DNA of 43,421 nucleotides, taken from positions 1 through 43,421 of the forward strand of contig JAGOFZ010000003.1 of the NCBI GenBank assembly GCA_017996955.1, in the 5' to 3' direction. Below the pieces are notes generated by a model that saw nothing but the letters and a program-made list of their open reading frames with translations, had not been told where the DNA came from and ran no database searches. This document shows positions 26,748 through 43,421 of this stretch, piece after piece. The translations under genes and the position numbers were made by a program. Numbering within the stretch: position 1 is the stretch's first letter; each line of letters starts with the position of its first letter. The stretch is from Longilinea sp. (GTDB lineage: Bacteria > Chloroflexota > Anaerolineae > Anaerolineales > Anaerolineaceae).

Positions 26748-28550
26748 ATGACTACTGCCCATATTCGCAATTTCTGTATCATTGCCCATATTGATCACGG
26801 CAAGTCCACCCTGGCGGATCGCCTGCTCCAAATAACTGGCACTATCTCCGATCGCGAGATGGTCGCCCAGGTCTTAGATTCAATGGATTTGGAACGTGAA
26901 AAAGGCGTGACCATTAAAGCCTCGGCTGTTCGCATGAACTACACTGCCCAGGATGGTCAAACCTACGAGCTGAACCTGATTGACACCCCCGGACATGTGG
27001 ACTTTAATTACGAAGTCAGCCGGGCGCTGGAGGCTTGCGAAGGCGCTCTCTTGATTGTGGATGCTACCCAGGGCATCGAAGCTCAAACTCTGGCGAACCT
27101 TTATCTTGCGCTTGAAGCCGATCTCAAAATCATTCCTGTTTTGAATAAAATTGACCTTCCCTCATCGCATGCCGATGAGGTTGCAAAAGATCTGGAACAT
27201 CTGCTTGGCATTCCTGCTGATTCCATTTTGCAAGTCTCTGCTAAGGACGGCACCAATGTTCCCGCTGTTTTGGAAGCCATTGTGCAGCAGGTGCCGCCCC
27301 CCGCGGGTCAACCCGAAGGTGTGTTGAAAGCTTTGATTTTTGACTCGCATTACGATTCCTATAAAGGCGTTGTAGCCTATGTGCGGGTTGTCGAAGGGCA
27401 GATGAAATCTACCGATATGCTGCACCTGATGGCAACCAATATTGATATGCGCCCGGTTGAGTTAGGCGTTTTTGCGCCTGACATGCGCCCGGTTCCCTCT
27501 CTTCAGGCAGGTGATGTAGGTTACGTTGCTACCGGCCTGAAAACAGTTTCAGAATGTCACGTTGGTGATACCATTACCGCCGCCGCACAGCCCGCCGCCG
27601 AACTGCTCCCGGGTTACCGCCGCCCCAAGCCGATGGTTTTTGCCGGCATCTACCCGGTCGAAGGCGAAGACTACGCCGATCTCAAAGAAGCCCTGGAAAA
27701 ACTCCAGCTCAACGACGCTGCTCTGGTCTATGAGCCCGAAACCTCTCAGGCCCTTAATTTCGGCTTCCGTTGCGGCTTTCTGGGCCTCTTCCACATGGAA
27801 ATTATCCAGGAACGCCTGGAACGCGAGTATGACCTGGATATCGTTGTCACCGCCCCCTCGGTGGAATACGAAGTCGTACTGGTAACGGGCGAGGTCCTCC
27901 TGATCGATTCTCCCGTCCAACTGCCCGATGAATCCACCATTGCCGAAATCCGTGAACCCTGGATGCGGTTGGAAATCATTACCCCCACTGAGTTCTACGG
28001 CACCATCATGGAACTGGTCATCAAACGCCGCGGCGCCTTCAAGAGCCAGGATTATCCTGCCCCCAACCGGGTACAGTTAGTCTTTGAAATCCCGCTGGCT
28101 GAATTGATTGTTGATTTCTTTGACGACCTGAAATCCCGCACCCGCGGCTACGCCTCGATGGACTACGCCGTGGACGGTTACCGTCCCGAAAATCTTGTCA
28201 AGTTGGAAGTCATGGTTGGCGGTGAACCCGTAGATGCCCTGGCTGCCATCGTCCACAAAGAGCATGCCTACCATAAAGGCCAACGGCTGGTGACCAAGTT
28301 AAAAGAGCTTATCCCCCGGCAGTTGTTTGATGTCGCAGTCCAGGCCAGCGCGGGTGGCCGCATCATCTCCCGCGCCAACGTCAAAGCGCTGCGCAAAGAT
28401 GTGCTGGCGAAATGTTACGGTGGCGATATTTCCCGTAAGCGCAAACTGCTGGAAAAGCAGAAAAAGGGCAAACGCCGCATGAAGATGGTGGGCAGTGTGG
28501 AAATCCCCCAGGAAGCCTTTATGGCTGTTTTGCGCCTGGAGGATGAATGA
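26748..28550 (+). CDS. lepA: Elongation factor 4 (LepA)
   Basis: 600 residues, full length. GTPase domain with '[15 protein letters not shown]' (P-loop), '[14 protein letters not shown]' (G3) and 'NKIDLPSS' (G4); domain II, then the LepA-specific C-terminal domain ending '[34 protein letters not shown]', which binds the tRNA-containing A site. LepA is a ribosomal GTPase affecting translation initiation and ribosome assembly. There is no ribosome-binding site; the promoter position implies a near-leaderless transcript. It overlaps the flippase-like gene by 4 nt (ATGA), so this translation factor heads a long run of glycan genes. Confidence 0.98.
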
Positions 28551-29572
28551 CCCAATCGCCGCCCACGTCTCCCTGGCGGCGCGTGGGGCGCTGGCTGCCT
28601 GGCGTTTTAATCAGCCTGGTTGCCATCATTGCCTTATCGCAATTTGTCAAAGACGGCGCCTCCTTACGGGCTGCTTTTGCCCAGATCAATCTACTGTATC
28701 TGGCGCTGGTCGTTCTTGGAACCCTGGCCTTCCTCTTTGTTCGCGCCCAGGCCTGGCGCATTTTGCTGGGGGGTAAACCCACCATCATTCAGACCTTTTT
28801 TGCCATCAACGAAGGTTATTTGCTTAACAACGTTCTCCCATTCCGCGCCGGCGAATTTGCTCGGGCTATCTTTTTGGGTAAATCCACCGGCCTCGGAACG
28901 TTCCACATTCTTTCAACCATCGTCTTAGAGCGCATTTTTGATGTTGCTTTTGCCGCCGGATTACTGCTGGCAACCCTGCCAATGGCCTTCGCCATGGAGC
29001 AGGCGCGCCAGGTCGCGATGATTGCCCTGGCGCTGGTCGTGGTCGGTTTGGTTGTCCTGTTTTGGAGCTACCGCAACCGCGCCAGGCTCGAAGTCTGGCT
29101 GGATAAGTTTGCCGGTCGCTGGTCTTTTGCCCGGCGCTTCATCCTGCCGCAGTTCTCTCGCTTGTTACAGGGCTTTGAAGTTCTCAGCCGCCCATCCCAA
29201 TTTCTGGGCGCTTTGTTTTGGATTGCCATTTCCTGGGGTATAGCAGTATTCAACTACTGGGTCTACATGCTTTCTTTTGCGCCGCACGCGCCGTTCTGGT
29301 GGGGCGCTTTTGCCGATTCAATTCTCGGCTTGAGCATTGCCATCCCATCTGCTCCAGCTGCGCTGGGTGTTTTTGAGGCTGCCCTTGTTGGCGCCCTGAC
29401 CATTCTTGGCCTGTCCGAAGGCCCGGCCCTGGCTTACGCCATTTCACTTCATGCCGTTCAGTTTGTGACCACTGGCATTCTGGGCGTCTGGGGCCTTTTA
29501 CGCGAACGTCAATCAATTCAAGGGGTTTTGGATAGTTTGGAGCGTAAGCCAACACCACAGCAGGATGCCTGA
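28547..29572 (+). CDS. LPGS_TM / UPF0104 flippase-like membrane protein
   Basis: 341 residues, about eight transmembrane segments. Family marks include '[28 protein letters not shown]' type spacing (about residues 84-111; the NN-LP-R-GE-R pattern is the family's best signature), '[10 protein letters not shown]', and a late '[21 protein letters not shown]' segment. Like the protein at 1937-2908, it lacks the aminoacyl-transferase domain of MprF. Members of this family beside GT4 and GT-C genes are suspected to help move lipid-linked intermediates, without proof. It overlaps lepA by 4 nt and is followed directly, with no gap, by the GT4 gene. It is likely the first functional member of the glycan operon. 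Confidence 0.85.
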
Positions 29573-30721
29573 ATGAACATTCTCATTGCCCTGACGTATT
29601 ACCGCCCACACTACTCCGGGCTGACAATTTACACCGAACGCCTGGCACGCGCCCTGGCCCAGCGTGGCCACCGTGTGATGGTGCTGACTTCACGCTTTGA
29701 CCCCCGTCTTCCCGCCCGCGAGGTTCGCGATGGCGTAGAAATATACCGCCCCCGTGTCCTGATGCGCATTAGCAAGGGCGTCATCATGCCAGCCATGCCT
29801 TTTTGGGCCATCCGCCTGATCCAGCAGGCCGATGTGGTTAATTTGCATGTTCCCCAGTTAGATGCCGCCCCAATTTCGCTCCTCGCCCGTCTGCTGCGCC
29901 GCCCCGTGGTACTGACCTACCATTGCGATTTGCATCTACCCAAAGGTTTTGTTCATAAGGTTGCCAACTGGGTCTCCAATTTAGCCAACCATATCACCGC
30001 TCGGGCCGCCAATCGGCTGGTCACCAATACCCTGGATTATGCTGAAGCCTCACCCTTTTTAAGACATTACCTGGATCGTACCGAGAGCATCGTTACCCCG
30101 GCAGAATTACCCCCCGTAACGACTGATGAAATCACCCATTACCGTCAAGAATGGGATCTGCAGCCCGGTCAGCGCATCATTGGTATGGCAGCCCGTTTTG
30201 CCACCGAAAAGGGTGTGGAGTATCTGGTTGAAGCCATGCCGCGTATTCTTGAGAAACACCCCCAGGCCCGGGTATTATTTCTTGGTCAGTATCAAAATGT
30301 CCTTGGTGAAGAAGAATATGCCCACCGTCTTGCTCCGCTAATTGATCAGATTGGCTCCGCCTGGAAATTCCTGGGCGTGGTTCCTTCAACCGCCCTGGCC
30401 GCGTTTTTCCGGCTGTGTGATCTGACCGTCCTTCCCAGCATCAACGGCACTGAATCGTTTGGGATTGTTCAGGTTGAATCTATGATGTCTGGAACGCCCG
30501 TTGTTGCCACAGACTTGCCGGGCGTCCGCCAGCCGGTTCGCATGACTGGCATGGGGCGGATTGTTCCACCCCGCAACGCCCTCGCCCTGGGTGAAGCGAT
30601 CATCGATGTGTTGGATCATCCGGATAAATATCAGGGAGACCCTGCTCAGATAGCCCGGATGTTTGCCCCCGCCTCGATTGCTGAACAATACGAAAAAGTT
30701 TTTGGAGCTGTGCTGTCATGA
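29573..30721 (+). CDS. Glycosyltransferase family 4 (GT-B fold)
   Basis: 382 residues, soluble or membrane-associated. The N-terminal Rossmann domain opens 'MNILIALTYYRPHYSGLTIYTERLARALAQRGH', the acceptor-side loop of GT4 enzymes; the C-terminal domain has 'GMAARFATEKGVEYLVEAM' and the donor-binding EX7E motif 'ESFGIVQVE' followed by 'SMMSGTPVVATDLPGVRQPV'. Such retaining enzymes use a nucleotide sugar (often GDP-mannose or UDP-sugar) to extend a lipid-linked acceptor on the cytoplasmic face. The donor cannot be read from sequence; GDP-mannose from ManC is a reasonable guess. It overlaps the methyltransferase gene by 4 nt. Confidence 0.92.
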   Translation: MNILIALTYYRPHYSGLTIYTERLARALAQRGHRVMVLTSRFDPRLPAREVRDGVEIYRPRVLMRISKGVIMPAMPFWAIRLIQQADVVNLHVPQLDAAPISLLARLLRRPVVLTYHCDLHLPKGFVHKVANWVSNLANHITARAANRLVTNTLDYAEASPFLRHYLDRTESIVTPAELPPVTTDEITHYRQEWDLQPGQRIIGMAARFATEKGVEYLVEAMPRILEKHPQARVLFLGQYQNVLGEEEYAHRLAPLIDQIGSAWKFLGVVPSTALAAFFRLCDLTVLPSINGTESFGIVQVESMMSGTPVVATDLPGVRQPVRMTGMGRIVPPRNALALGEAIIDVLDHPDKYQGDPAQIARMFAPASIAEQYEKVFGAVLS

Positions 30722-31515
30722 CCTCAAAAGATCACCTCTGGCTGCAGCTCAAATCCATGCCTTATTTTCGCGGCCTGCTGCGCGCCGTTGAAGCGCGATT
30801 CTATGACGACATCACTCTAACTGGTCCAGTGCTCGATCTTGGCTGCGGCGATGGCCATTTTGCCAGCGTGGTTTTTGATCACCCCCTGGATGTAGGCCTG
30901 GACCCCTGGACGGCGCCATTGGTTGAGGCTGCCGGACGCCGCGTTTACAATCTGCCAATCCAGGCGGCCGGCGCTCAAATGCCCTTCCCAGATGCTTATT
31001 TTAACAGTGCCATCAGCAATTCTGTTTTAGAGCATATCCCCAACCTTGACCCTGTCCTGGCTGAAACCGCGCGTGTCCTGAAGCCCGGTGCCTTGTTTGT
31101 TTTCTGTGTGCCCAATCATCATTTTGATCCCAACCTGAGCGTTGCAAAACTATTAGATCGGCTGGGCCTGCGCAAACTGGCAGCCACCTATCGCCGCTTC
31201 TTTGATCGCATTGCCCGCCACCATAACCTCGATGCCCCCGAAACCTGGATCCCCCGCCTGGAAAAAGCTGGTTTCACTGTTGAACGCTGGTGGCATTATT
31301 TTTCCCCGGCTGCTCTGGCTGTGCTGGAATGGGGTCACGCTTTTAGTCTGCCAGCCCTGGTCACCCGCAAATTGACCTCCCGCTGGATCCTGGCGCCGTA
31401 CCGCTGGAATTTATTCATCACTGAGTCGATCACCCGTCCCTATTATAACGAGCCGTCTCCACAACCGGAGGGGGTTTGCACATTCTACATTGCGCGTCGG
31501 CGCAGCCAGGAGTGA
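30718..31515 (+). CDS. Class I SAM-dependent methyltransferase
   Basis: 265 residues. The SAM site 'VLDLGCGDGHFASVVF' is at about residues 39-54, followed by an acidic 'DVGLDPW' and the Methyltransf_11 pattern 'FPDAYFNSAISNSVLEHIPNLDPVLAETARVLKPGALFVF'. The C-terminal half carries aromatic clusters that would form the substrate pocket or a membrane contact. The acceptor is unknown; its position between a GT4 and a second methyltransferase suggests methylation of a glycan or of its lipid carrier. ATGA overlap with the GT4 gene. Confidence 0.85.
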   Translation: MTSKDHLWLQLKSMPYFRGLLRAVEARFYDDITLTGPVLDLGCGDGHFASVVFDHPLDVGLDPWTAPLVEAAGRRVYNLPIQAAGAQMPFPDAYFNSAISNSVLEHIPNLDPVLAETARVLKPGALFVFCVPNHHFDPNLSVAKLLDRLGLRKLAATYRRFFDRIARHHNLDAPETWIPRLEKAGFTVERWWHYFSPAALAVLEWGHAFSLPALVTRKLTSRWILAPYRWNLFITESITRPYYNEPSPQPEGVCTFYIARRRSQE

Positions 31516-31516
31516 T

Positions 31517-32323
31517 ATGGCAAATACACTTCGCAAATACCAATATTACCTCTCTTCCATCCCGCGCCTGTTGACCGGCTTTGTTGAGTGGCCCAAAATT
31601 TTGGGCGTATTTTTGAGGTTGTATCGCACCACACCCTTTGAGGTTCAATTGCGTCACAGCGGCGTTCGCTTTTCCGCCCGCAGCCCCATGGATTTATGGA
31701 GCATCAAAGAGGCTTTTATTGACCGTTTCTACGAGCGCTACGGTTTCCCAATTGAAAAGCGTTGGACGGTGGTGGATATTGGCGCTGGCATTGGCGAATA
31801 CACGCTTTTGGCTGCGACAACAGACACCTCAAACCGCGTGATCGCTTTTGAGCCCTTTGCTGAATCTTACAAGCTCCTGCGCCAAAATCTCCGCCTCAAT
31901 GGCGCAATTAACGTTTCGGCTGTTCCCATCGCAATCAGCTCTCGTACAGGCCAACTGAGTCTTGACCTTTCGGCAGGGGAACCCTTGAAGATTGAAAGCC
32001 ACCTTGCCGAGGCCGAATCACCTACGGGCACAGCCGGACTGGTGGAGTGTCTGTCCCTTGCCGATGCCTTTGAGCGCTACGAGATCGAACACTGCGATTT
32101 GCTCAAGCTGGACTGCGAGGGCGCTGAGTATGATATTTTGTTTTACGCTTCCGCTGAAACCCTCGGCCGGGTAAAGCGGATTGTAATGGAATATCACGAC
32201 GGAAAAACAGCGTATAGCCATAAAGATATGGAGCATCATCTCCGTGATCATGGCTACCGGGTTGAAAGCGTTGTCAATGTTGTCCACGACGACATTGGTT
32301 ATTTGAGCGCCATTCGGCCTTAG
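31517..32323 (+). CDS. FkbM family methyltransferase
   Basis: 268 residues from the ATG at 31517, which has a CCAGGAGTG ribosome-binding site; an upstream in-frame start would overlap the previous gene by 26 nt. FkbM marks: 'VVDIGAGIGEYTLLAA' (SAM site), 'VIAFEPFAESYKLLRQNLRLNG', and 'DLLKLDCEGAEYDILF', the most characteristic motif of the family. Members O-methylate sugars and polyketides; in glycan loci they often cap or decorate sugar residues. It lies next to another methyltransferase, pointing to at least two methyl groups on the product. The next gene starts 8 nt later. Confidence 0.9.
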   Translation: MANTLRKYQYYLSSIPRLLTGFVEWPKILGVFLRLYRTTPFEVQLRHSGVRFSARSPMDLWSIKEAFIDRFYERYGFPIEKRWTVVDIGAGIGEYTLLAATTDTSNRVIAFEPFAESYKLLRQNLRLNGAINVSAVPIAISSRTGQLSLDLSAGEPLKIESHLAEAESPTGTAGLVECLSLADAFERYEIEHCDLLKLDCEGAEYDILFYASAETLGRVKRIVMEYHDGKTAYSHKDMEHHLRDHGYRVESVVNVVHDDIGYLSAIRP

Positions 32324-32331
32324 GAGGGTCT

Positions 32332-34419
32332 GTGGGCACGGAAACCCAGGAACCCAGCATTCTGGATTATCTTAAGTCAAAACTGACCCTCTCTGCCTCA
32401 GCAGCTCATCCCTGGCCCTGGCGGGTATTGCTGGCTCTGGCTTTGGCTTTGTTGGCTCAACAATCAATGGAACCCTCCTCGGCAGAACGTCAGTGGGGGC
32501 CGGGGGTAGCGTTATATTTACTTGCGGCGGGGCTGGTTGTCTGGGCTGTCATCAGGCAAGAATGGCGTAGTCCGGATCCGGCTGTTGAGTCCCCCGATCC
32601 AATTCAAGAGTTGGAAACCGGACCTTTGCCAGACTCGGCTGTGTCCGCGCCTCTACGCTGGTTTTGGTTTATCCCGGCGCTGCTGTTTACAGCCCTGGCT
32701 TTCACCCTGTTTAGAGAAAACCGTTTCACGTTGCCAAACCTTCTGCTGTGGTTGGCTGCTGTTGGATCCATGGTCGCTGCGCTCTGGGCGCCTCGCATTA
32801 GCTTTGCCTATCGCCTCGCCAGCTTGTGGGGTTGGCTCACGCGGCGTCAATGGCAAATCCGCATCACCCCCTGGATGCTGCTCTGCGTAGTTGTTTTTGC
32901 TGCAGCAATCTTTTTTCGGTTTTACCGGTTGGATTCTGTCCCCCCTGAAATGGTCAGCGATCACGCCGAAAAATTACTGGACGTGAGCGACGTCTTATCG
33001 GGTAACACCAGCATTTTCTTCACTCGCAATACGGGCCGCGAACCCTTCCAAATGTACCTCACGGCTCTGGTCAGCCTGGTATTCGGCACAGGGGCTTCCT
33101 TCCTGAGCTTGAAGCTGGGCACTGTGCTGTGCGGTGTACTCACATTGCCCTATCTTTATGCACTTGGCAAAGAGCTTGGCAGCCGCCGCATTGGTCTAAT
33201 CGCCCTGGCCTTTGCCGGAATTGCCTATTGGCCCAATCTCATCTCGCGCATCGGATTACGCTTCACGCTTTATCCATTCTTTTTTGCTCCCACGCTTTAT
33301 TATTTTTTGCGCGGAATGCGGACATCCAGCCGCAACGATTTTATTCTGGCCGGACTCTTCCTCGGCCTTGGCCTGCACGGCTACTCCCCGTTTCGGATTG
33401 TTCCATTGCTGCTGGTATTTGCCATCGGGTTGTTTTATCTGCATCGAGTTTCTAAATACCGCCGCAGCGAATCGATTGCCGGCCTGGCTATCATCATTTT
33501 GGTTTCGGTGGTTGTCTTTCTCCCGCTGCTGCGCTTCTTGCTCGAAAACCCGGCAATTTTCTCCTACCGTATGCTAACTCGTTTGACCGGCATGGAATCT
33601 CCTCTGCCCGGTCCAATCTGGCAGTTATTCTTCACAAACTTATGGCGCGCCCTGACCATGTTTTCATGGAACAACGGCGAGGTCTGGGTGATTTCTGTGA
33701 TGGGCCGTCCAGTTTTAGACTGGGTAGCGGGCGGGCTGTTCAATCTCGGCGTTGTTGTTCTGCTGGTGCGTTATATTCAGCGCCGCCACTGGCTGGATTT
33801 GTTCCTGCTTCTCTCCATTCCCATTCTAATGCTCCCTTCCATTCTTTCATTTGCTTTTCCAGCCGAAAACCCTTGCCTCAATCGCACCGCCGGCGCGATC
33901 ATCCCGGTTTTCCTCATCGTCGGCTTTGCACTTGATGGAGTGATGAAATCGCTCGAATCCCACCTGGCGCGCCTGGGTTCCCGGCTCGGGTGGCTGCTCT
34001 TTGCTGGCTTGTTTTTAATTTCGGCCGCTCAGAATTATCAGTTGGTCTTTAACCAGTACCGTAGTTTTTATGAACAGGCTTCGCTGAACACTTCCGAGAT
34101 GGGCCAGGTCATGGGCGCCTATGCCGAATGGTCGGGCTCTCCCGAAACCGTTCATCTTGTCGGCTACCCCTACTGGGTGGATTCTCGCCTGGTCGCAATC
34201 AATGCCGGTTACCCAACTCTGGATCCCGGCATCATGCCCGAAAATTTGCCGCAGGTGGCCACCGACAACCGCGCCCAATTGTTTATTTTGAACCCATACG
34301 ATACCGATGGGGTGGCAGCATTGAATCTACTGTACCCTGGTGGTACACTAAGAAATTACGATTCAAAATTCGATGGCAAAGATTTTTTGCTGTTCTACGC
34401 GCCAGCCAAAATGCCATAA
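32332..34419 (+). CDS. GT39-like (PMT_2) membrane glycosyltransferase
   Basis: 695 residues from a GTG start with an AGGAGG ribosome-binding site. Four additional helices occupy roughly residues 30-150; the GT-C module starts near 180. The first outer loop, 'RLDSVPPEMVSDHAEKLLDV' (about 200-218), contains D210 and E213, the likely catalytic acidic pair of GT39/PMT_2 enzymes. A run of helices follows to about 580, then a soluble tail with 'VHLVGYPYWVDSRLVAINAGYP'. It should transfer a sugar from a polyprenyl-phosphate donor to a lipid, glycan or protein outside the membrane. The acceptor is not determinable. It precedes the giant fusion gene by 24 nt. Confidence 0.8.
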   Translation: MGTETQEPSILDYLKSKLTLSASAAHPWPWRVLLALALALLAQQSMEPSSAERQWGPGVALYLLAAGLVVWAVIRQEWRSPDPAVESPDPIQELETGPLPDSAVSAPLRWFWFIPALLFTALAFTLFRENRFTLPNLLLWLAAVGSMVAALWAPRISFAYRLASLWGWLTRRQWQIRITPWMLLCVVVFAAAIFFRFYRLDSVPPEMVSDHAEKLLDVSDVLSGNTSIFFTRNTGREPFQMYLTALVSLVFGTGASFLSLKLGTVLCGVLTLPYLYALGKELGSRRIGLIALAFAGIAYWPNLISRIGLRFTLYPFFFAPTLYYFLRGMRTSSRNDFILAGLFLGLGLHGYSPFRIVPLLLVFAIGLFYLHRVSKYRRSESIAGLAIIILVSVVVFLPLLRFLLENPAIFSYRMLTRLTGMESPLPGPIWQLFFTNLWRALTMFSWNNGEVWVISVMGRPVLDWVAGGLFNLGVVVLLVRYIQRRHWLDLFLLLSIPILMLPSILSFAFPAENPCLNRTAGAIIPVFLIVGFALDGVMKSLESHLARLGSRLGWLLFAGLFLISAAQNYQLVFNQYRSFYEQASLNTSEMGQVMGAYAEWSGSPETVHLVGYPYWVDSRLVAINAGYPTLDPGIMPENLPQVATDNRAQLFILNPYDTDGVAALNLLYPGGTLRNYDSKFDGKDFLLFYAPAKMP

Positions 34420-34443: not shown

Positions 34444-37400
34444 ATGGATGACCCCCTGACACCTGTCCAAGTAACTGAAAATTCCACCCCTTCCCTGTCT
34501 ACCGAAAAACCACCCCGGCGGAAGTTCTCCTGGGGCTGGGCCTGGGATCTATTACTGGTGGTCATTTTACTGGTTGGCGGTTACTTCCGCACCATTGGAA
34601 TTAACTGGGATTCAAACCAACATCTTCACCCTGATGAGCGCTTCCTCACGATGGTGGAAACTTCAATCCAGCCGGTTGCCAGTCTGGCAGATTACTTTAA
34701 CACTGCCACCTCAACCCTCAACCCCAACAATGTTGGTCATGGATACTTTGTTTATGGCACACTGCCAATTTTCCTGGTGCGCTATGCTGCCGAGGCGCTC
34801 GACCAAACCGGTTATGATCAAGTCTATCTGGTTGGTCGGGCTTTTTCAGCATTTATTGATCTATTAACGGTCTTCCTTGTTTTTGTAATCGCTCTCCGGC
34901 TTTACCGCAACACTCGCCTGGGGCTTTTGGCGGCTGCTTTTTCAGCCTTTGCGGTGCTGCAAATTCAGCTCTCGCACTTTTTCACAGTCGATACTTTCGC
35001 CAACTTTTTCACCTATCTGGCTTTCTATTTTGCCGTTCGCGTCATGACCGCCGATACCCCCGGCACACCCGTCTCCTCCCCGACAGAAACCGCCGAAGCC
35101 GACATGCCTCCAGCACGCCCTTCACCCTGGGCCTGGATGCAGTTGTCCTGGCGCGGTTGGGGCAACTATATCCTCTTTGGTCTGGCGCTTGGCATGGCGG
35201 TTGCCTCAAAGATCAGCGCCGCGCCATTAGCCCTTCTACTACCCCTGGCCGCGGTATTGTTTATCTCCCGGATCCCAAAACCCCAGCAGCGTGACCAGAT
35301 CATTATTGCCTTCCGCCACCTCGTTTTGGCAGCCCTCATGGCAATTCTGGTCTTTCGCATTTTCCAGCCCTACGCTTTTGATGGTCTTGGATTGAATCCC
35401 AAATGGGTTGCCAATCTGACGGAACTGCAGCGCCAGAGCACCGGCGATGTCGATTTCCCTCCCGCCTTGCAGTGGGCTCGGCGTCCCATTACTTTTGGCT
35501 GGGAAAATCTGACCATCTGGGGATTAGGGCTGCCTCTGGGCTTGCTGGCCTGGGCTGCCTTCATCTGGATGGGTTGGCGTATTTTCCGCGGCGAATGGCG
35601 CAACCATTTACTCCTTTGGGGTTGGACCGGGCTGTACTTCCTCTGGCAGGGTACTGCTTTTGTCAGCTCAATGCGCTACCTCTTGCCCATTTACCCCTCG
35701 CTGGCAATCATTGCCGCCTGGGGCATCTTTGCTCTCTGGGAAGCTGGTAAAAAGAAGCCTTTACCCCGTTGGAACTGGCAAAAAATTCTATCAGTTACAG
35801 CCGGAGCTATTGTGCTGGTCAGCACTTTTGCCTGGGCATTTGCCTTTACCCGCATTTATACCCGCCCGGTTTCTCGCCTGGAGGCCAGTTACTGGATCTA
35901 TCAGAATGTCCCTGGCGCCATCAATTTGAGAATGACAACCGCCGATGGTGATTATCAACAGCCCCTGGGCAGTCTGGGCGCGCTGACTTTGATGTCAGAC
36001 CACCCCCTCACGCTCACTTTTGATGCCCCCGCCGCTGTTACGCTGCAGGATATCACCATTACCCGACTGAGTGATGCGCAGTGGTCTGCTGACCAGCGCA
36101 CTCTGTCGTTCAGCATTTATGCCGCCAACAGCCCCGATTCAACGGTATTAGCCAGCGGCATGTTGGCCTCCTCTTATGCTGTTGAACAATCGACAACCAT
36201 ACCGCTGTCCATTCCCCTGACGCTTGAACCCGCAACAGAATATGTCATCCAGTTCAGCGTTATGGAACCCGGTGCCATGATGCGTCTGGCGGGTTATCTG
36301 GATCTTGGTTTGCAGGATGGCGAACGTTTATATCGCCACCGCGCAGCGGAATTTGTTCAATTAATCACCACCGAACAATCGTTTCAGGTGCCCTCGTTCC
36401 GGATTTTGGAAGCCGGCACACTGAACGGCATCTGGCTGGAAAATGTTGCGGATTGGGAATCGCAGCCCGACCCCAAAACCTTGCGAGTCTCGCTTGCGCT
36501 CCCCGGCCAGGAATCCCAGCCCCTTGCCGTCGCTCAAATTCAAGATACATTCCTGCGGCAAAATGATTTTCGCGGCGAATCCTACTGGTTAACGTTTGAT
36601 CCCCCGGTGCAAATCATCCAGGATGGCGTTTATACCCTGACGTTTGAATTGCCCGAAGGCACCGGTGCCCTTGCGCTCACCAACAGTAAAGTAGCCATCG
36701 AATCTTCCTGGGATGATGCCGTGCCGTTATCGGTCGGGCAGGGTGGACCCTACGATGTCAACTGGGGGCCCTACCGCACGGATTTGAATTTTGAAATGTA
36801 CTGGGACGATTCAGCCGACAAGCTCGAACGCTTTATCACAATCCTGAATAACACAGATTATATTTTCATGAGTTCCAATCGCCAGTGGGGCACCATCCCG
36901 CGTGTGCCAGAGCGATACCCCCTGTCTGCCTATTACTATCGACATTTGCTGGGTTGCCCTGAAGATAAAGACATCGTCTGGTGCTATTCCGCTGCAGAAC
37001 CCGGTATGTTCCAGGGTGACCTTGGTTTTGAATTGATCTATGTTGGCGCATCTTATCCCAATTTGGGGAGTTTGGAATTCAATACCCAGTTTGCCGAAGA
37101 AGCCTTCAGTGTTTACGACCATCCCAAGGTCATGGTTTTCAAGAAAACAGCCGATTACCAGCCCACCGCAACCCAGGCCTTGCTGGAATCGGTTGACCTT
37201 TCCAATATTGTGCGCCTGACACCGCGCCAGGCTGGTGATTACAAAGGCAACCTGATGCTGCCTGCCAACCGTTTGGTTAAGCAGCAGTCCGGCGGCACCT
37301 GGTCAGAACTCTTCAATACCGATGCCCTCCACAACAAATATCCTGCTCTGGCTCTGATTCTCTGGTATGTGGTGATCACCCTGCTGGGCTGGCTCATCTA

Positions 37401-39975
37401 TCCATTTGTGCGCCTGGCTATGGGCGGTCTGACCGACAAAGGCTATCCGTTTGCCCGCCTGATCGGCCTGCTTTTGCTTGCCTGGGTCACCTGGTTGGCT
37501 GGTTCTGCCGGAATTGATTTCAGCCGTCTGACCATCCTGATTATATTTGTTCTCCTGTCGCTCGGCAGCCTGGCCCTGGGGTGGCTGCAGCGCGATGCCT
37601 TGCGTGAAGAATGGCGTACCCGCAAGCGCTACTTTATCTCTGTCGAACTGATTGGCCTGGCCTTTTTTGTCCTGTTCCTGCTGGTTCGGATTGGCAACCC
37701 GGATCTCTGGCATGCTTTCAAGGGTGGCGAGAAACCCATGGATTTCTCCTATTTCAACGCCGTTCTTAAGAGCACCACCTTTCCTCCGTACGACCCCTGG
37801 TTCTCAGGAGGGTACCTCAATTATTATTACTATGGTTTTGTGATCATTGGTGTTCCGGTCAAGCTTTTAGGTATTGTTCCTGCCATCGCCTATAATTTGA
37901 TTCTGCCGACCTGGTTCAGCTTGATGGCGCTCGGCGCTTTTAGCGTGGGCTGGAATCTGGCTAACTCAGTTAAAAAACCTGCCGAGACAGACCAACAGCC
38001 TCAACCCGTTGCTGCTTTAGATATTCTGCTGTCAGAGCCTGCCGACACAGAATCTCCAATAGCGCCTGCCATTGCGCCTTCTGAATACATAGACTCTCCT
38101 GCGCCAGCCTCGCCCGTTGCCGAATCTACGCAGGTGCCGGTGGCCCCCACTAAAAAACACCGACCGGCCACTTGGAACCTTTATATGGCTGGCATAACTG
38201 CCGCCGTTGCCATTTTGATCCTGGGCAACCTGGGCACTATTCGCCAGATTTGGCACAGCATTCAACGTTTGGCGGCCCCTGGCGCGGTCATCGAAGATGC
38301 TACCTTTGTCCAGCGCCTGACCTGGACCTTTGATGGTCTGGCAAAATATATGGACGGCGAAAAACTGCGCGTGGGAACTGGCGATTGGTACTGGGTTCCC
38401 AGCCGCGCCATCCCCGGCGAGGCCATTACCGAGTTCCCGTTGTTCACTTTCTTATATGCCGACCCTCACGCGCATCTCATTGCACTGCCAATTACAGTTC
38501 TGGCAATTGGCTGGACTTTGGCGGTTTTGTTGGGCCGCTGGCGCTGGGCTGACCGCCGGCGGGCGCTGGCATTTGGCGCCAGCATGTTGCTCGGCGGAGT
38601 GGTTTTGGGCGCCCTGCGTCCCACCAACACCTGGGATATGTATACCTTTTTACCATTGGGTGCCATTGTCCTGGGCTACACCGCCTGGCAGTACGCTGAT
38701 TGGCCCATTCGCTGGTTATCCGATTGGCCGCAAAAGTTCCAGCGTTTTCTTGTTGCTCTTGCCAGCATGGGTTTGCTGGTCATCCTTGCGTTGCTGTTCT
38801 ATGCGCCATTCACTCACTGGTTCGGCACAGCTTACAATTCCTTTGCCCTCTGGAAGTATGACCATACACCCTTCTGGTCTTACATCACCCACTGGGGCGT
38901 TTTCCTCTTTGTCCTGATCGGTTGGATGTATTGGGAGACGCGTGACTGGCTGGCAAAAACCCCCGTCTCTGCCCTCAAAAAGCTTGAACCCCATCTGATC
39001 TGGTTGATCCCCGTCGGCCTGATTATCCTTGCCCTCATCATTCTATTGATGTCTGGCATTACGACGACGGGCCTGTCCGATGAAGTTCTGGTGCAGCTAA
39101 AAACCCCTGGCGTTGCCGTCGCCTGGCTGGTGATCCCGATGATCCTCTGGGCTGGCATTCTCATTCTGCGCCCCGCTCAACCTGATGGAAAGCGCATGGT
39201 GCTCTTCATGATTGGCACCGCCCTGACCCTGACACTGGTTGTGGAGCTTTTAGTCCTGGTAGGCGACATTGGCCGCATGAATACAGTCTTCAAGCTCTAC
39301 TTGCAGGCCTGGACACTTCTCTCCCTCAGTGCTGCGGCGGCCCTTTACTGGCTCTGGCCCGAGATTAACCTCAACTGGACGCCGCGCTGGCGTTCCACCT
39401 GGCAGGTGGTATTTGCCCTGCTGATCGGCAGCGCCTTACTCTTCCCGCTCGTTGCCGGTGCTGACAAAATCCGCGATCGAATGAGCAACCAGGCTCCCCA
39501 TACCCTGGATGGCATGGCTTATATGGAATACGGCAGTTTCTATGAAAACGGCGTCAATATTGAATTTGATGAAGATTACCGCGCCATCCGCTGGATGCAG
39601 GAAAACGTTACCGGCTCTCCGGTGATTGTCGAAGGCCGGGTTGGGGAGTATCATTGGGGGAACCGCTTCACCGTTTACACGGGCTTGCCAAATGTCCTCG
39701 GCTGGAACTGGCATCAGAGCCAGCAGCGCGCCGGAGCCACGCAGCCCTGGGTGGGGCAGCGTCTCAATGATGTGATGCTGTTCTACACAACGGTTGAGCG
39801 CAGTGAAACAGAAAATTTCTTGGAACGCTATAACGCCAGCTATATTATTGTCGGGCAGTTGGAGCGTGCAGCTCATCCCGGCCCCGGACTGGATAAGTTC
39901 GATCAGTGGGAAGGCGATCTTTGGCAAGAAGTTTATCGAGATGGACAAACTGTGATCTATGAGGTGATTCGATGA
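34444..39975 (+). CDS. Giant GT39-like / DUF2298 (Chlor_Arch_YYY) fusion membrane protein
   Basis: 1843 residues. Region 1 (about 30-480) is a GT39/ArnT-like module; the first outer loop has 'LHPDER' with D64-E65. Region 2 (about 490-940) is a soluble, beta-rich insert without a transmembrane helix, apparently outside the cell, with two or more sandwich-like repeats ('PLSIPLTLEPATEYVIQFSV'; 'IIQDGVYTLTFELPEG'). Region 3 (about 955-1843) is a DUF2298 / Chlor_Arch_YYY module: 'EKPMDFSYFNAVLKSTTFPP', YYYYG at 1127-1131, 'DPHAH' at 1340-1344, 'RMNTVFKLYLQAW', and a soluble tail. A Pro/Ala-rich linker with no obvious fold interrupts region 3 near 1180-1240. DUF2298 has no established reaction; its layout suggests a second GT-C enzyme. 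A GAGGAG ribosome-binding site precedes the ATG. ATGA overlap with the DUF952 gene. Confidence 0.85.
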   Translation: MDDPLTPVQVTENSTPSLSTEKPPRRKFSWGWAWDLLLVVILLVGGYFRTIGINWDSNQHLHPDERFLTMVETSIQPVASLADYFNTATSTLNPNNVGHGYFVYGTLPIFLVRYAAEALDQTGYDQVYLVGRAFSAFIDLLTVFLVFVIALRLYRNTRLGLLAAAFSAFAVLQIQLSHFFTVDTFANFFTYLAFYFAVRVMTADTPGTPVSSPTETAEADMPPARPSPWAWMQLSWRGWGNYILFGLALGMAVASKISAAPLALLLPLAAVLFISRIPKPQQRDQIIIAFRHLVLAALMAILVFRIFQPYAFDGLGLNPKWVANLTELQRQSTGDVDFPPALQWARRPITFGWENLTIWGLGLPLGLLAWAAFIWMGWRIFRGEWRNHLLLWGWTGLYFLWQGTAFVSSMRYLLPIYPSLAIIAAWGIFALWEAGKKKPLPRWNWQKILSVTAGAIVLVSTFAWAFAFTRIYTRPVSRLEASYWIYQNVPGAINLRMTTADGDYQQPLGSLGALTLMSDHPLTLTFDAPAAVTLQDITITRLSDAQWSADQRTLSFSIYAANSPDSTVLASGMLASSYAVEQSTTIPLSIPLTLEPATEYVIQFSVMEPGAMMRLAGYLDLGLQDGERLYRHRAAEFVQLITTEQSFQVPSFRILEAGTLNGIWLENVADWESQPDPKTLRVSLALPGQESQPLAVAQIQDTFLRQNDFRGESYWLTFDPPVQIIQDGVYTLTFELPEGTGALALTNSKVAIESSWDDAVPLSVGQGGPYDVNWGPYRTDLNFEMYWDDSADKLERFITILNNTDYIFMSSNRQWGTIPRVPERYPLSAYYYRHLLGCPEDKDIVWCYSAAEPGMFQGDLGFELIYVGASYPNLGSLEFNTQFAEEAFSVYDHPKVMVFKKTADYQPTATQALLESVDLSNIVRLTPRQAGDYKGNLMLPANRLVKQQSGGTWSELFNTDALHNKYPALALILWYVVITLLGWLIYPFVRLAMGGLTDKGYPFARLIGLLLLAWVTWLAGSAGIDFSRLTILIIFVLLSLGSLALGWLQRDALREEWRTRKRYFISVELIGLAFFVLFLLVRIGNPDLWHAFKGGEKPMDFSYFNAVLKSTTFPPYDPWFSGGYLNYYYYGFVIIGVPVKLLGIVPAIAYNLILPTWFSLMALGAFSVGWNLANSVKKPAETDQQPQPVAALDILLSEPADTESPIAPAIAPSEYIDSPAPASPVAESTQVPVAPTKKHRPATWNLYMAGITAAVAILILGNLGTIRQIWHSIQRLAAPGAVIEDATFVQRLTWTFDGLAKYMDGEKLRVGTGDWYWVPSRAIPGEAITEFPLFTFLYADPHAHLIALPITVLAIGWTLAVLLGRWRWADRRRALAFGASMLLGGVVLGALRPTNTWDMYTFLPLGAIVLGYTAWQYADWPIRWLSDWPQKFQRFLVALASMGLLVILALLFYAPFTHWFGTAYNSFALWKYDHTPFWSYITHWGVFLFVLIGWMYWETRDWLAKTPVSALKKLEPHLIWLIPVGLIILALIILLMSGITTTGLSDEVLVQLKTPGVAVAWLVIPMILWAGILILRPAQPDGKRMVLFMIGTALTLTLVVELLVLVGDIGRMNTVFKLYLQAWTLLSLSAAAALYWLWPEINLNWTPRWRSTWQVVFALLIGSALLFPLVAGADKIRDRMSNQAPHTLDGMAYMEYGSFYENGVNIEFDEDYRAIRWMQENVTGSPVIVEGRVGEYHWGNRFTVYTGLPNVLGWNWHQSQQRAGATQPWVGQRLNDVMLFYTTVERSETENFLERYNASYIIVGQLERAAHPGPGLDKFDQWEGDLWQEVYRDGQTVIYEVIR

Positions 39976-40325
39976 CCCCTTCAGAATTAATCTACCACCT
40001 GACCATACAGTCCGATTGGCAAACGGCTCTCCAAATCGGCGAATACCGCGGCAATACGCTCGAAACCGAGCATTTTATCCACTGCTCCACCCGCACCCAG
40101 GTTTTGGAAGTTGCCAACCGCATCTTCAAATCTCGCCTCGATCTGCTCTTGCTGGAACTTGACCCTGCGCTGGTTGTTCCAGAAATAAAGTGGGAAATAT
40201 CCGAGAATGACGATACTTACCCCCATATCTATGGGCCTTTGAATTTGAACGCTGTCCGTCATGTCTGGGCCATGCCGCCCGAGTCAGACGGCACGTTTGT
40301 CTGGCCTGTCGGGGCCGGAGAATAG
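39972..40325 (+). CDS. DUF952 family small soluble protein
   Basis: 117 residues. The pattern 'IYHLTIQSDWQTALQIGEYRG', 'FIHCSTRTQVLEVANRIF', 'LLLLELDPALVVPEIKWE' and 'YPHIYGPLNLNAV' matches DUF952 along its full length. The conserved His and Ser of 'FIHCST' and the 'HIYGPL' His are typical of the family. No biochemical role is established to my knowledge; a distant link to the ADP-ribosyltransferase-like fold has been suggested for such proteins, which I cannot confirm here. What is odd is its place: it is translationally coupled (ATGA) to the giant fusion gene and sits 5 nt before the second DUF2298 gene. It has no signal peptide, so it would act in the cytoplasm. Confidence 0.88.
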   Translation: MTPSELIYHLTIQSDWQTALQIGEYRGNTLETEHFIHCSTRTQVLEVANRIFKSRLDLLLLELDPALVVPEIKWEISENDDTYPHIYGPLNLNAVRHVWAMPPESDGTFVWPVGAGE

Positions 40326-40330
40326 ACCAG

Positions 40331-42922
40331 ATGCTGGCGTTTTTATCCTGGTATGTGTTAATCACTGTGGTGGGGTTGTTGGCATTCCCCATAGCCTACC
40401 GCATATTTACGCGCCTGCCAGATCGCGGCTATGCACTTGCCCGCCCGTTTGGCCTCCTCCTGTGGGGTTTTATCTTCTGGCTGTTGGCTTCTTTGCATAT
40501 CCTCCAGAACGATCTGGGTGGCGTCTTGCTGGCCCTGCTCCTGGTGCTGGGTGCCAGCGCCCTGGTTATTCGAAAAGAATGGCAGGATTTCATTGGTTGG
40601 TTTAAACCCCACCTGAAAATCTGGCTGACCATAGAATGTGTTTTCCTGGTCTTTTTTGCCGCCTGGGCCGCCGTTCGCGCCTTCAATCCCGCCATCGTAG
40701 GCACTGAAAAACCCATGGAAATGGCGTTCATCAATGCCATTCTGCGGTCTCCCACTTTTCCGCCTAATGATCCCTGGCTTTCTGGCTATTCCATTTCCTA
40801 CTATTACTTTGGCTATGTCATGGTTGCCATGCTGACCCGGCTGACGGCCGTTGAACCGGGCGTGGCTTTTAACTTGGCCAGCGCGCTCTGGTTTGCCCTC
40901 ACCGCCACAGCCGCTTATGGTGTGTTGTTCGCACTGATCAACCGCTGGCTTCACGAACGTACACCATTGGTTGAGACCCTCAAAACTACGGCTCGCGGCC
41001 TGGGCATGGCGCTGTTTGGCCCGCTGTTCCTTCTGCTGGTCGGCAATCTGGAAGGGATTCTTGAAAACCTGTATGCCGTGGGTGCCTTCTGGTCCCCGGC
41101 GGCGGATGGCACGTACCAGTCGCGCTTCTGGGCCTGGCTGGATATCGCCGAATTAAAAGCTGCCCCTACACATTTACCCTTCGATTGGTCCGCCTGGAAT
41201 TTCTTGAAGGATGGCCTGCCGCATCGCCAGGCTGGCTGGCTCATCTGGCGCGGCTCCCGCGTTCTGACGGATTACAATCTTTCTGGCGGCGCCATTGAAA
41301 TTATTGATGAATTTCCCTTCTTCTCCTACCTTCTCGCCGACCTGCACCCGCATGTGTTGGCAATGCCCTTTGTTCTACTGTGCATTGGGCTGGCCTTGCA
41401 GGTTTATCTTGCCCATGGTCGCCCGTTTGAAGGCAAATCCATCTTTGATTGGCTCCGCTTGCCGGAATTTTGGCTCAATGCTGTCATCTTCGGCAGTCTG
41501 GCGTTCCTGAATACCTGGGACTTTCCGATTTATGTAGCGCTTTTCAGCGCCGCGTTTATCCTCTCTCGTACGCAAAGCTTTGGCTGGGCAACCCGGCGTT
41601 TATGGGAATTTATCGGTGTGGCCGCGGTCCTTGGGATTGCTGGCGTTGTGCTTTATCTGCCATTTTACCTGGGATTTGCCTCTCAAGCCGGTGGCATTAT
41701 GCCCAGCGGTATTTTTGTCACACGCGGAGCCCATTTCTGGGTCATGTTTGGCGTCTTGCTGGTACCTGTCTTGATCTGGTTATTCTGGTCGTGGTCTCAT
41801 AATGGCAGCCGGCCCGCATTGAAAGCCGGGGGCAAATTTGCTGTATGGGTGATTGGCGGCCTTGCCCTGGCCTCTCTATCCCTTTTAGTGCTTGCCCCCG
41901 TCCTGGAATCTATTGGGCGTTCAATTTTGTCCACGCCATCCGGAGCTGCATCGCGCCTGGCAAATAGCATGGTATTCTGGGCCAGTATGATTAACAGCCT
42001 GTTTGGAGCTTCCGACAGCGGCGCGCTGCTTGGCGCCGCCCTGCAGCGCAGAATAACTTATGTCGGCACATGGCTGCCCCTGACGACCATTGTTGTCCTG
42101 GCCTGGGGTCTAATGTCTGCTTTAAAACGTCGCACTGCTTCAGAAGAATCAACATCCCAGCAAATTACCCCTGTTCAGGCCTTTGCCGCACTGTTGGCCC
42201 TTCTGGGCGCTGGCCTGGCCCTGTTCCCGGAATTTTTCTTCCTGCGGGACAACTTTGGCAACCGCATGAATACCATCTTCAAGTTTTACTTCCAAACCTG
42301 GATCATCTGGTCGCTGGTGGCTGCCTTTGCCTCTGCCGTCCTCTGGGAGGCGCTGAGCGGATTCCGGGCCGTCATCTTTAGCGCGGTTTGGTCCATTGTC
42401 CTGTTGATGTCTCTGACCTATCCCGTAACCATGCTGCCTTATTACACAGGTAACTTTAAAGTAACCGATAATTACACGCTCGACGGCACTGCTCACATCG
42501 AGCGCAGTCAGCCGGATGAAATGGCTGCTATTCGCTGGCTGCGCGATGCGCCCTATGGGGTAGTCGCCGAAGCCGTCGGCGGCGCCTATTCCTCTTATGC
42601 GCGCATCTCGGTCAACACGGGTTTGCCCACCGTATTGGGCTGGGACAACCACGAGGGCCAATGGCGCGGTAGTCGAGATGAGATTGGCAGCCGCACACCC
42701 GATATGCAGCAGCTTTACGTCAGCTCAGATTGGGAAGCCGTGAAGGCCATCCTGGTCAGGTATAATATTCGATATGTTTACGTTGGCCCCTTGGAGCGCA
42801 ACACCTATCCTGTTAACGATAACCTCTTCCAGACCTACCTAAAACCGGTTTTTGTGACCAATACCGTAATGATTTACGAAGTCCCCCAATTGGAAATAGT
42901 GCCCCTGCAAACCACCCCGTGA
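40331..42922 (+). CDS. Stand-alone DUF2298 (Chlor_Arch_YYY) membrane protein
   Basis: 863 residues; a single DUF2298 module covering nearly the whole protein. It parallels the C-terminal half of the giant fusion motif by motif: 'GTEKPMEMAFINAILRSPTFPP', YYYFG at 157-161, 'FPFFSYLLADLHPH' with D337 and H341, 'FLNTWDFPIY', 'RMNTIFKFYFQTW', then a soluble tail with 'YNIRYVYVGPLER'. About 18 hydrophobic segments are visible. The function is not established; the motif order with acidic and His residues at the outer face and a soluble C-terminal domain is compatible with a GT-C glycosyltransferase. It starts 5 nt after the DUF952 gene, with GGAG about 10 nt before the ATG, and is followed 12 nt later by a TIGR03663-like gene, a known companion family. 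Confidence 0.88.
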   Translation: MLAFLSWYVLITVVGLLAFPIAYRIFTRLPDRGYALARPFGLLLWGFIFWLLASLHILQNDLGGVLLALLLVLGASALVIRKEWQDFIGWFKPHLKIWLTIECVFLVFFAAWAAVRAFNPAIVGTEKPMEMAFINAILRSPTFPPNDPWLSGYSISYYYFGYVMVAMLTRLTAVEPGVAFNLASALWFALTATAAYGVLFALINRWLHERTPLVETLKTTARGLGMALFGPLFLLLVGNLEGILENLYAVGAFWSPAADGTYQSRFWAWLDIAELKAAPTHLPFDWSAWNFLKDGLPHRQAGWLIWRGSRVLTDYNLSGGAIEIIDEFPFFSYLLADLHPHVLAMPFVLLCIGLALQVYLAHGRPFEGKSIFDWLRLPEFWLNAVIFGSLAFLNTWDFPIYVALFSAAFILSRTQSFGWATRRLWEFIGVAAVLGIAGVVLYLPFYLGFASQAGGIMPSGIFVTRGAHFWVMFGVLLVPVLIWLFWSWSHNGSRPALKAGGKFAVWVIGGLALASLSLLVLAPVLESIGRSILSTPSGAASRLANSMVFWASMINSLFGASDSGALLGAALQRRITYVGTWLPLTTIVVLAWGLMSALKRRTASEESTSQQITPVQAFAALLALLGAGLALFPEFFFLRDNFGNRMNTIFKFYFQTWIIWSLVAAFASAVLWEALSGFRAVIFSAVWSIVLLMSLTYPVTMLPYYTGNFKVTDNYTLDGTAHIERSQPDEMAAIRWLRDAPYGVVAEAVGGAYSSYARISVNTGLPTVLGWDNHEGQWRGSRDEIGSRTPDMQQLYVSSDWEAVKAILVRYNIRYVYVGPLERNTYPVNDNLFQTYLKPVFVTNTVMIYEVPQLEIVPLQTTP

Positions 42923-42934
42923 GGCCCAAGCCTG

Positions 42935-43421
42935 ATGAAAAACAGACCTATAACCATTGAACACATCTTATTTGCGCTGGCTTTTCTGCTGGCCCTGGTT
43001 TCCCGGCTCTGGGCTCTTGCTGCCACACCTCTTGGCGATACCGAAGCTGCATTGGCGCTTCAGGCTGCCCATCTATTCAGTGATCGCACCGCTGCAATTG
43101 ATCCCCAACCCGCCTATATTTTGATGACCAGCGTTTTATTTGCCATTTTCCAGGCTACAGATTTCACCGCTCGCCTGATCCCCGCCCTGGCAGGCAGTCT
43201 CCTGGTCTTGTCGCCCCTGCTATTTCGGCGGCAGTTGGGGCGCTGGTCGGCAATCTTGCTGGCTTTTGGTCTGGCGCTGGATCCTGGTTTAACAGCTGTT
43301 TCCCGTCAGGCCGGGGGAATGATGATTGGCTTGGCCTGTACAGTTCTGGCCCTGGGCTACTACATCAGACGCTCATCGGCCGCTGCCGGAATCTGCCTGG
43401 CGCTTGCCCTGCTAAGCGGTC
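42935..43421 (+). CDS. TIGR03663 / GT39-like membrane protein, 3' end outside window
   Basis: The first 162 residues are present; the frame is still open at the right edge. The protein begins 'MKNRPITIEHILFALAFLLA' (first helix), then an outer-loop 'ATPLGDTEAALALQAAHL' with D37 and E39, the place of the catalytic acidic pair in GT39-type enzymes, and later 'FTARLIPALAGSLLVLSPLLF', a segment that recalls the TIGR03663 family. TIGR03663 proteins are reported to occur together with Chlor_Arch_YYY (DUF2298) proteins, and here the gene follows one by 12 nt. The call is limited by truncation; a general GT39 enzyme is the alternative. There is no strong ribosome-binding site before the ATG. Confidence 0.6.
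   Translation, partial: MKNRPITIEHILFALAFLLALVSRLWALAATPLGDTEAALALQAAHLFSDRTAAIDPQPAYILMTSVLFAIFQATDFTARLIPALAGSLLVLSPLLFRRQLGRWSAILLAFGLALDPGLTAVSRQAGGMMIGLACTVLALGYYIRRSSAAAGICLALALLSG

Follow-up and report, generated by a model that had tools for sequence, protein, structure and literature searches.

What two related membrane proteins of the DUF2298 (TIGR03662) family do together in a run of sugar-related genes is the question raised by the window analysed here, a 43,421-nucleotide stretch of Longilinea sp. DNA. DUF2298 was universal among the genomes we sampled from the class and also occurs in Archaea; our search of the open-access literature turned up no paper on DUF2298 function and no biochemical data for it, and the papers that mention the family do not appear to give it a function. 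The TIGRFAM text notes the joint occurrence of the Chlor_Arch_YYY and TIGR03663 families in Chloroflexi and Archaea. Neither family is new, nor is the pairing; this analysis adds a predicted GT-C assignment, a tree of the paralogues, a set of invariant residues and a neighbourhood measured across genomes. To our knowledge, neither the GT4-methyltransferase-PMT neighbourhood nor the GT-C assignment appears in the family descriptions of TIGR03662 and TIGR03663. We propose, with a probability of about 0.7 for the explanation as a whole, that the gene run is the Anaerolineae form of a conserved envelope-glycan cluster, in which serial polyprenyl-phosphate-sugar-dependent GT-C enzymes would act on a lipid-linked, probably methylated glycan on the outer face of the membrane.

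To define the run, we examined its open reading frames and searched their products with profiles (Table 1). The initial annotation had described four packed genes with spacings of −4, 5 and 12 nt; this packing, with all four genes on the plus strand, was confirmed, but the unit does not start at position 34,444 as described there, since the run begins earlier, at lepA. There is a 4-nt overlap between lepA and the flippase-like gene, and from that point no gene is more than 24 nt from the next, so the unit comprises at least ten genes. lepA is a possible head of the transcript, and its function is probably unrelated to that of the glycan genes. A scan of the run for promoters and terminators, which is a weak test, found no clear break between genes; the site counts were somewhat higher than in shuffled sequences and the sites lay mostly inside genes. 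Pfam and NCBIfam searches returned the two DUF2298 proteins, the DUF952 protein and the TIGR03663-like N-terminus that had been claimed, and profile searches did the same for the upstream LPG_synthase_TM/TIGR00374, GT4, Methyltransf_11-type, FkbM and PMT_2 genes. The last gene is incomplete because the contig (C104) ends at base 43421. The FkbM gene has a TTG start, with an alternative ATG 27 nt further in.

Table 1. Genes of the run, with positions in the window
Gene product	Position	Strand	Length	Basis
lepA (elongation factor 4)	26748..28550	+	600 aa	ORF, named from sequence
TIGR00374 / LPG_synthase_TM flippase-like membrane protein	28547..29572	+	341 aa	Pfam 135 bits, TIGR00374 59.7 bits (cut-off 43.2)
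GT4 glycosyltransferase	29573..30721	+	382 aa	Pfam Glycos_transf_1 107 bits
Class I SAM methyltransferase	30718..31515	+	265 aa	Pfam Methyltransf_23/11
FkbM-family methyltransferase	31490..32323	+	277 aa	TIGR01444 105 bits
PMT_2-type GT-C glycosyltransferase	32332..34419	+	695 aa	Pfam PMT_2 39.7 bits
PMT-like+DUF2298 fusion	34444..39975	+	1843 aa	Pfam, NCBIfam, AlphaFold of residues 1-990
DUF952 protein	39972..40325	+	117 aa	Pfam 94 bits (cut-off 23.7)
Stand-alone DUF2298/TIGR03662 protein	40331..42922	+	863 aa	Pfam, NCBIfam, AlphaFold
TIGR03663-related (Agl23-like) GT-C protein	42935..43421	+	first 162 aa	TIGR03663 53.8 bits

All 150 genomes sampled from the class carried DUF2298, usually in the form of a long fusion plus a separate stand-alone gene; it was also found in 58 of the 61 genomes of the order and in 103 of 151 phylum genomes, with strong matches in 100. 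The claim that DUF2298 and TIGR03663 travel together held across the phylum in a nested pattern: all 97 genomes with a strong TIGR03663 match were DUF2298-positive and none of the 51 others had such a match (Fisher p ~4e-37, uncorrected for shared ancestry). In the control set, the archaea Haloferax volcanii and Methanosarcina acetivorans matched both families. A search of a plasmid collection gave two distant DUF2298 matches only, in Pseudobutyrivibrio and Halarchaeum. In Pseudobutyrivibrio xylanivorans, the polysaccharide locus that holds the DUF2298 gene also has genes for an O-antigen ligase, a GT2 and an epimerase; the Halarchaeum match was dropped, having no annotated DUF2298 gene and uninformative neighbours.

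To determine which genes recur around DUF2298, we surveyed 160 neighbourhoods (60 from the class and the window genome together, 80 named loci and 20 from other classes; the unnamed and named sets overlap partly, as some genomes are in both). The open reading frames were labelled by profiles made from the window proteins and counted only at loci with enough flank; the label thresholds were tuned on the window's own family, and the counts for distant groups are therefore lower bounds. Upstream of the fusion, a PMT gene lay within two genes at 23 of 26 order loci and 35 of 40 named relatives, GT4 was present at 21/26 and 36/40, a member of the methyltransferase family at 20/26 and 27/40, and the TIGR00374 flippase-like gene at 13 of 26 order loci. 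Downstream, the stand-alone DUF2298 gene followed at 23/26 order loci and 55/55 named loci, and the Agl23-like gene at 23/26 and 41/51. In other orders, the pair of fusion and stand-alone DUF2298 persisted at 23 of 27 loci and the Agl23-like gene at 19 of 27, with GT4 (6/25), methyltransferase (4/25) and PMT (4/25) retained by no more than a few families; beyond the class, the pair was found at 9 of 11 loci. The other orders thus mainly keep the fusion, DUF2298 and Agl23, implying that the upstream genes are non-obligatory partners. The window proteins shared only ~44-65% identity with their best matches in the surveyed loci, so the conservation does not come from recent common descent alone.

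The linkage of GT4, methyltransferase and PMT genes to DUF2298 is therefore repeated, as the initial annotation had predicted for the first two, but the same prediction did not hold for DUF952 and FkbM. DUF952 was present at 4/26 order loci, 25/55 named loci and 0/27 loci of other orders, and FkbM was present at 2/26 order loci and 3/40 named loci; the counts do not support either as a core part, as had been supposed, and DUF952, rejected for its patchy distribution, was reclassed as accessory. At four loci (L129, L141, L167, L168), DUF952 adjoins the stand-alone DUF2298 gene even where that gene has moved, and its sequence matches the solved homologue CC0527 (2o0p/2o0q; E 1e-11). An ORF of ~599 aa was seen upstream of the flippase-like gene in several relatives. 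Since lepA lies upstream and, in relatives, the downstream flank holds plsC-like, cmk, histidine kinase and rpoC genes, we considered that the clustering might be no more than synteny inherited along with the housekeeping genes lepA, cmk and rpoC, among genes that do not cooperate. However, the DUF2298-Agl23 core stays intact in other orders and classes despite entirely different flanks, GT4, methyltransferase and PMT genes recur in some families of other orders, the genome-level co-occurrence is independent of position, and the Pseudobutyrivibrio DUF2298 gene lies within a polysaccharide locus, making mere synteny a very improbable explanation.

Both DUF2298 proteins of the window are clear family members: the two scored 378 and 362 bits with Pfam (cut-off 27.8), and 495 and 518 bits with the TIGR03662 NCBIfam profile (cut-off 300.25). 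We aligned 138 stand-alone and 112 fused copies (some genomes were sampled twice) and numbered residues by the window's stand-alone protein. Seventeen residues, E126, Y157, Y158, G161, R310, E327, P329, D337, H339, N394, R645, N647, K651, W657, G764, H774 and E822, were identical in 138/138 and 112/112 sequences, and D147, H341 and E747 were nearly invariant. Three of these form the YYYxG motif (Y157, Y158, G161), in which position 159 is Y or H. E126 and D147 fall in the first outer loop as placed by the helices of the model, where GT-C enzymes carry conserved acids; the corresponding invariant acids of the fusion's N-terminal module are D64 and E65. We regard E126, D337, K651 and others of the set as candidate catalytic residues. 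Both copies keep the full invariant set, which argues that the fused and the stand-alone DUF2298 are both active. In a FastTree phylogeny, a single branch (support 0.995) splits fused-type from stand-alone copies across all sampled classes; three apparent exceptions are at the fused position and either lack the N-terminal module or are cut by a contig end. This separation across classes indicates an old duplication with both copies retained.

To place the proteins structurally, we modeled them with AlphaFold. The stand-alone DUF2298 model (60 homologues; pLDDT 91.6, pTM 0.94) is laid out as a GT-C core at residues ~84-705 and a C-terminal domain at ~720-852, and in a Foldseek search its top match was AglB (E 1.7e-4), with AftA next among true GT-C matches. 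Aligned structurally with VIA-align, it gave Z 14.8 to yeast STT3 (rmsd 7.6 over 471), Z 13.5 to AftA (rmsd 5.3 over 491, N-terminal helices included), and Z 13.2, 13.0 and 12.2 to ALG12, AglB and ArnT, where by the tool's own warning a Z of 13-15 with a high rmsd counts as moderate for a large helical membrane protein. Residues 721-852 fit the isolated C-terminal globular domain of AglB (3vu0) with Z 11.4 and an rmsd of 2.8 Å over 111. The STT3 and AftA fits are nearly tied, and we therefore claim for the stand-alone protein a predicted GT-C fold with an oligosaccharyltransferase-like C-terminal domain, not an oligosaccharyltransferase (OST). The fusion is laid out as a PMT-like GT-C module (~30-490), a beta-rich middle (~490-990) and the DUF2298/TIGR03662 module (~990-1843). 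The model of its residues 1-990 (pLDDT 86.4) gave Z 28-32 to AglB, STT3 and PMT over the N-terminal half (AglB 32.1, Pmt4 28.7) and 26.8 to ArnT, and an invariant P-D-E (P63 D64 E65) follows the first helix, as in PMT enzymes. The fused DUF2298 module, judged from its sequence, probably belongs to the GT-C class as well. When the profile of the N-terminal part was compared with the stand-alone DUF2298, only a short helix at the DUF2298 start was shared, so the two GT-C halves of the fusion are not obvious copies of each other. Neither the DUF2298 profile nor that of the fusion's N-terminal half found a relative among PDB sequences. A predicted GT-C fold is by itself no proof of activity.

These folds raise the possibility that one or both DUF2298 proteins move a completed lipid-linked glycan onto protein en bloc and so replace a missing OST. 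The top fold matches include STT3 and AglB, the C-terminal domain fits that of AglB, D337-x-H339 resembles by eye the TDHH motif of AglB, and hhalign weakly matched the stand-alone C-terminal region to Chloroflexota AglB (E 1.3e-4, probability 54). STT3/AglB-like proteins are also scarce: at E <= 1e-7 and convincing length they occurred in 2 of 151 phylum genomes (G269, G340), with a weak and partial third match in G054, while the window genome, 78% complete, yielded none. In contrast, neither window DUF2298 protein matched the PF02516 profile, WWDYG was absent at the equivalent place from all 291 DUF2298 proteins scanned, AftA fits about equally well, and two diverged copies per genome would be unusual for an OST. 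Moreover, STT3 and DUF2298 coexist in G340, Haloferax and Methanosarcina, implying that DUF2298 is no simple OST replacement. En bloc transfer to protein is thus unlikely in our view, and it is similarly doubtful that the ancient paralogues form an unrecognised, WWDYG-less OST-like class that hands over a methylated lipid-linked glycan, once complete, to proteins or lipids of the surface, a reading that, if true, would apply in a bacterial phylum almost without classical OSTs. By eye WWDYG lines up with EAVGG, but hhalign places it at LGWxxHExQWRG, so that the exact equivalent is tentative; separately, WADWG occurs elsewhere in one of the 291 proteins.

The fourth gene of the packed unit had been taken as TIGR03663-like. 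It is probably a related paralogue and not a proper member of that family: the truncated window gene scores 53.8 bits against a cut-off of 126.25, and the intact orthologue at L103 scores 39.4 bits, also below the cut-off. Intact orthologues of ~580 aa occupy the same place in relatives. A full-strength TIGR03663 gene lies elsewhere in the window genome (contig C19, 215.8 bits). The statement that no pathway is assigned no longer applies to TIGR03663, which NCBI now names Agl23 and for which translocation activity is published: the Haloarcula hispanica protein is reported to carry lipid-linked M5GN2 across the membrane of proteoliposomes and to suppress a yeast rft1 deletion (PMC11182771). This flippase activity suggests that the Agl23-like protein may supply lipid-linked sugars. 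An H-D-E motif resembling that of PMT-type enzymes is invariant in long TIGR03663 proteins, which also match PMT_2, and the Agl23-like protein may therefore itself be a transferase. If the Agl23 activity extended to its partner, DUF2298 and the Agl23-like protein could mainly be flippases of lipid-linked sugars, with transfer left to the PMT-type enzymes, and the almost perfect co-occurrence of DUF2298 and TIGR03663 fits this. However, the predicted GT-C fold of DUF2298 with invariant loop acids and basic residues is what would be expected of a transferase, the PMT-like features of long TIGR03663 proteins point the same way, and several loci already have a separate TIGR00374 flippase-like gene, so that we hold a mainly flippase role to be quite improbable.

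We compared the cluster with known glycosylation systems. The TIGR03662/TIGR03663 pairing recurs here with clear DUF2298 members, although the window's own fourth gene is shorter and matches TIGR03663 more weakly, the true member lying elsewhere in the genome. With STT3, AglB and PglB (PF02516) the DUF2298 proteins share the predicted GT-C fold and an AglB-type C-terminal globular domain; they differ from OSTs in lacking a PF02516 match and WWDYG, in having extra N-terminal helices before the GT-C core and in being present as two paralogues per genome. AftA, an arabinofuranosyltransferase, has a comparable overall fit, yet no sequence similarity was detected and it belongs to another phylum and locus. 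Three-component extracytoplasmic glycosylation combines a polyprenyl-P-sugar synthase, a flippase and a GT-C enzyme (PMC11127046). Two small-genome lineages from outside the class (L202 and L203) have DUF2298 beside a full TIGR03663 gene (in L202 by a genome-level profile search), an FAD-dependent oxidoreductase gene and a flippase-like gene of TIGR00374 type. L203 shows the three-component logic, with GT2, flippase-like and GT-C genes side by side; its GT2 gene sits between two DUF2298 genes, and the best profile matches of the GT2, all below cut-offs, include PgfS, AglJ and polyprenyl/dolichyl-phosphate hexose transferases. The window cluster adds several GT-C modules, GT4 and methyltransferases to this scheme, and no polyprenyl-P synthase gene was found between its flippase-like gene and the contig end. 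Agl22 and Agl23 of H. hispanica are archaeal glycosylation steps (Lu 2020, cited in PMC11182771), and common to both systems is an Agl23-family protein with a role, for the window a predicted one, in the use or translocation of lipid-linked intermediates; DUF2298 goes unmentioned in the passages of PMC11182771 consulted, and the window context is bacterial and without AglB. In Litorilinea aerophila, the archaellum is reported to be likely O-glycosylated (PMC12488501).

We propose the following pathway for the serial GT-C reading. GT4, with a sugar-nucleotide epimerase/dehydratase in relatives, would, in the cytoplasm, begin or lengthen a polyprenyl-linked glycan, and the methyltransferase(s) may cap or decorate it, a step suggested just by gene order. 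The TIGR00374 protein, the Agl23-like protein or both would move lipid-linked sugars across the membrane. Outside, five GT-C modules in four genes (PMT-type, fusion N-terminal, fusion DUF2298, stand-alone DUF2298 and Agl23-like) would act one after another, without redundancy, in adding sugars from polyprenyl-phosphate donors, or would pass on the completed glycan; the acceptor may be an S-layer or pilus-type protein or a surface glycolipid. Of the function first attributed to the unit, completion of a methylated lipid-linked glycan on the outer face, the outer-face lipid-linked step is the best-supported part because of the predicted GT-C folds and conserved acidic residues, and the methylated state is the part drawn from gene order. 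What the computation supports is conservation of the cluster, predicted GT-C folds, an old duplication whose two products keep invariant candidate catalytic residues, coupling to TIGR03663 and the scarcity of OSTs.

The cluster probably builds a sugar coat outside the cell in almost all members of a large bacterial group. The predicted GT-C placement, the candidate residues, the non-redundant paralogues and the conserved operon together give a proposed glycosylation pathway that can be tested directly, and they have a bearing on surface glycosylation in Chloroflexota, where a classical OST is lacking.

The two DUF2298 genes of the cluster vary in layout among relatives. The DUF2298 module of the fused gene occurs without the N-terminal GT-C module in some relatives (loci L047, L154 and L169), and the two modules are encoded by separate ORFs in L132 and L134. 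The stand-alone DUF2298 gene is no longer beside the fusion in some relatives (L092, L093, L139 and L146), having moved to a second locus that is itself conserved and that in L146 adjoins a glutamyl-tRNA synthetase-like gene. In many Anaerolineae, the genes that follow the cluster on its 3' side are cmk, rpoC, one for a large sensor histidine kinase, and one or two for PlsC-like acyltransferases, which may be part of a glycolipid pathway or else unrelated.

Features at the surveyed loci
Feature	Location	Score or family
PlsC-like, cmk, histidine kinase, rpoC block	L103 15096-21197	
PlsC-like, cmk, histidine kinase, rpoC block	L120 15625-21152	
Full-strength TIGR03663 gene, ~1140 aa	G000:C19:4697-6736 (L094 4622-8047)	215.8 bits
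Long TIGR03663 protein, five C-terminal NHL repeats (beta-propeller)	L043 15496-18792	
FAD-dependent oxidoreductase	L203 128-1432	Amino_oxidase; PRK07233
FAD-dependent oxidoreductase	L202 5063-6370	Amino_oxidase
FAD-dependent oxidoreductase	L196 12833-14158	Amino_oxidase; PRK07233

The full-strength TIGR03663 (Agl23) gene of the window genome lies apart from DUF2298, on contig C19. Elsewhere in the class, in orders other than that of the window genome, the long form of the gene is found directly downstream of the short form. The terminal NHL repeats of one long protein suggest that this family carries an outer domain. AglB-like oligosaccharyltransferases are rare among Chloroflexota, occurring in genomes G340 and G269; the motif reads WWDYG in L179, WWDFG in L182 and WADYG in L180.

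In three distant Chloroflexota loci, an Agl23 or flippase-like gene is followed by an FAD-dependent oxidoreductase. These enzymes possibly modify isoprenoids, and therefore perhaps act on the polyprenol carrier.
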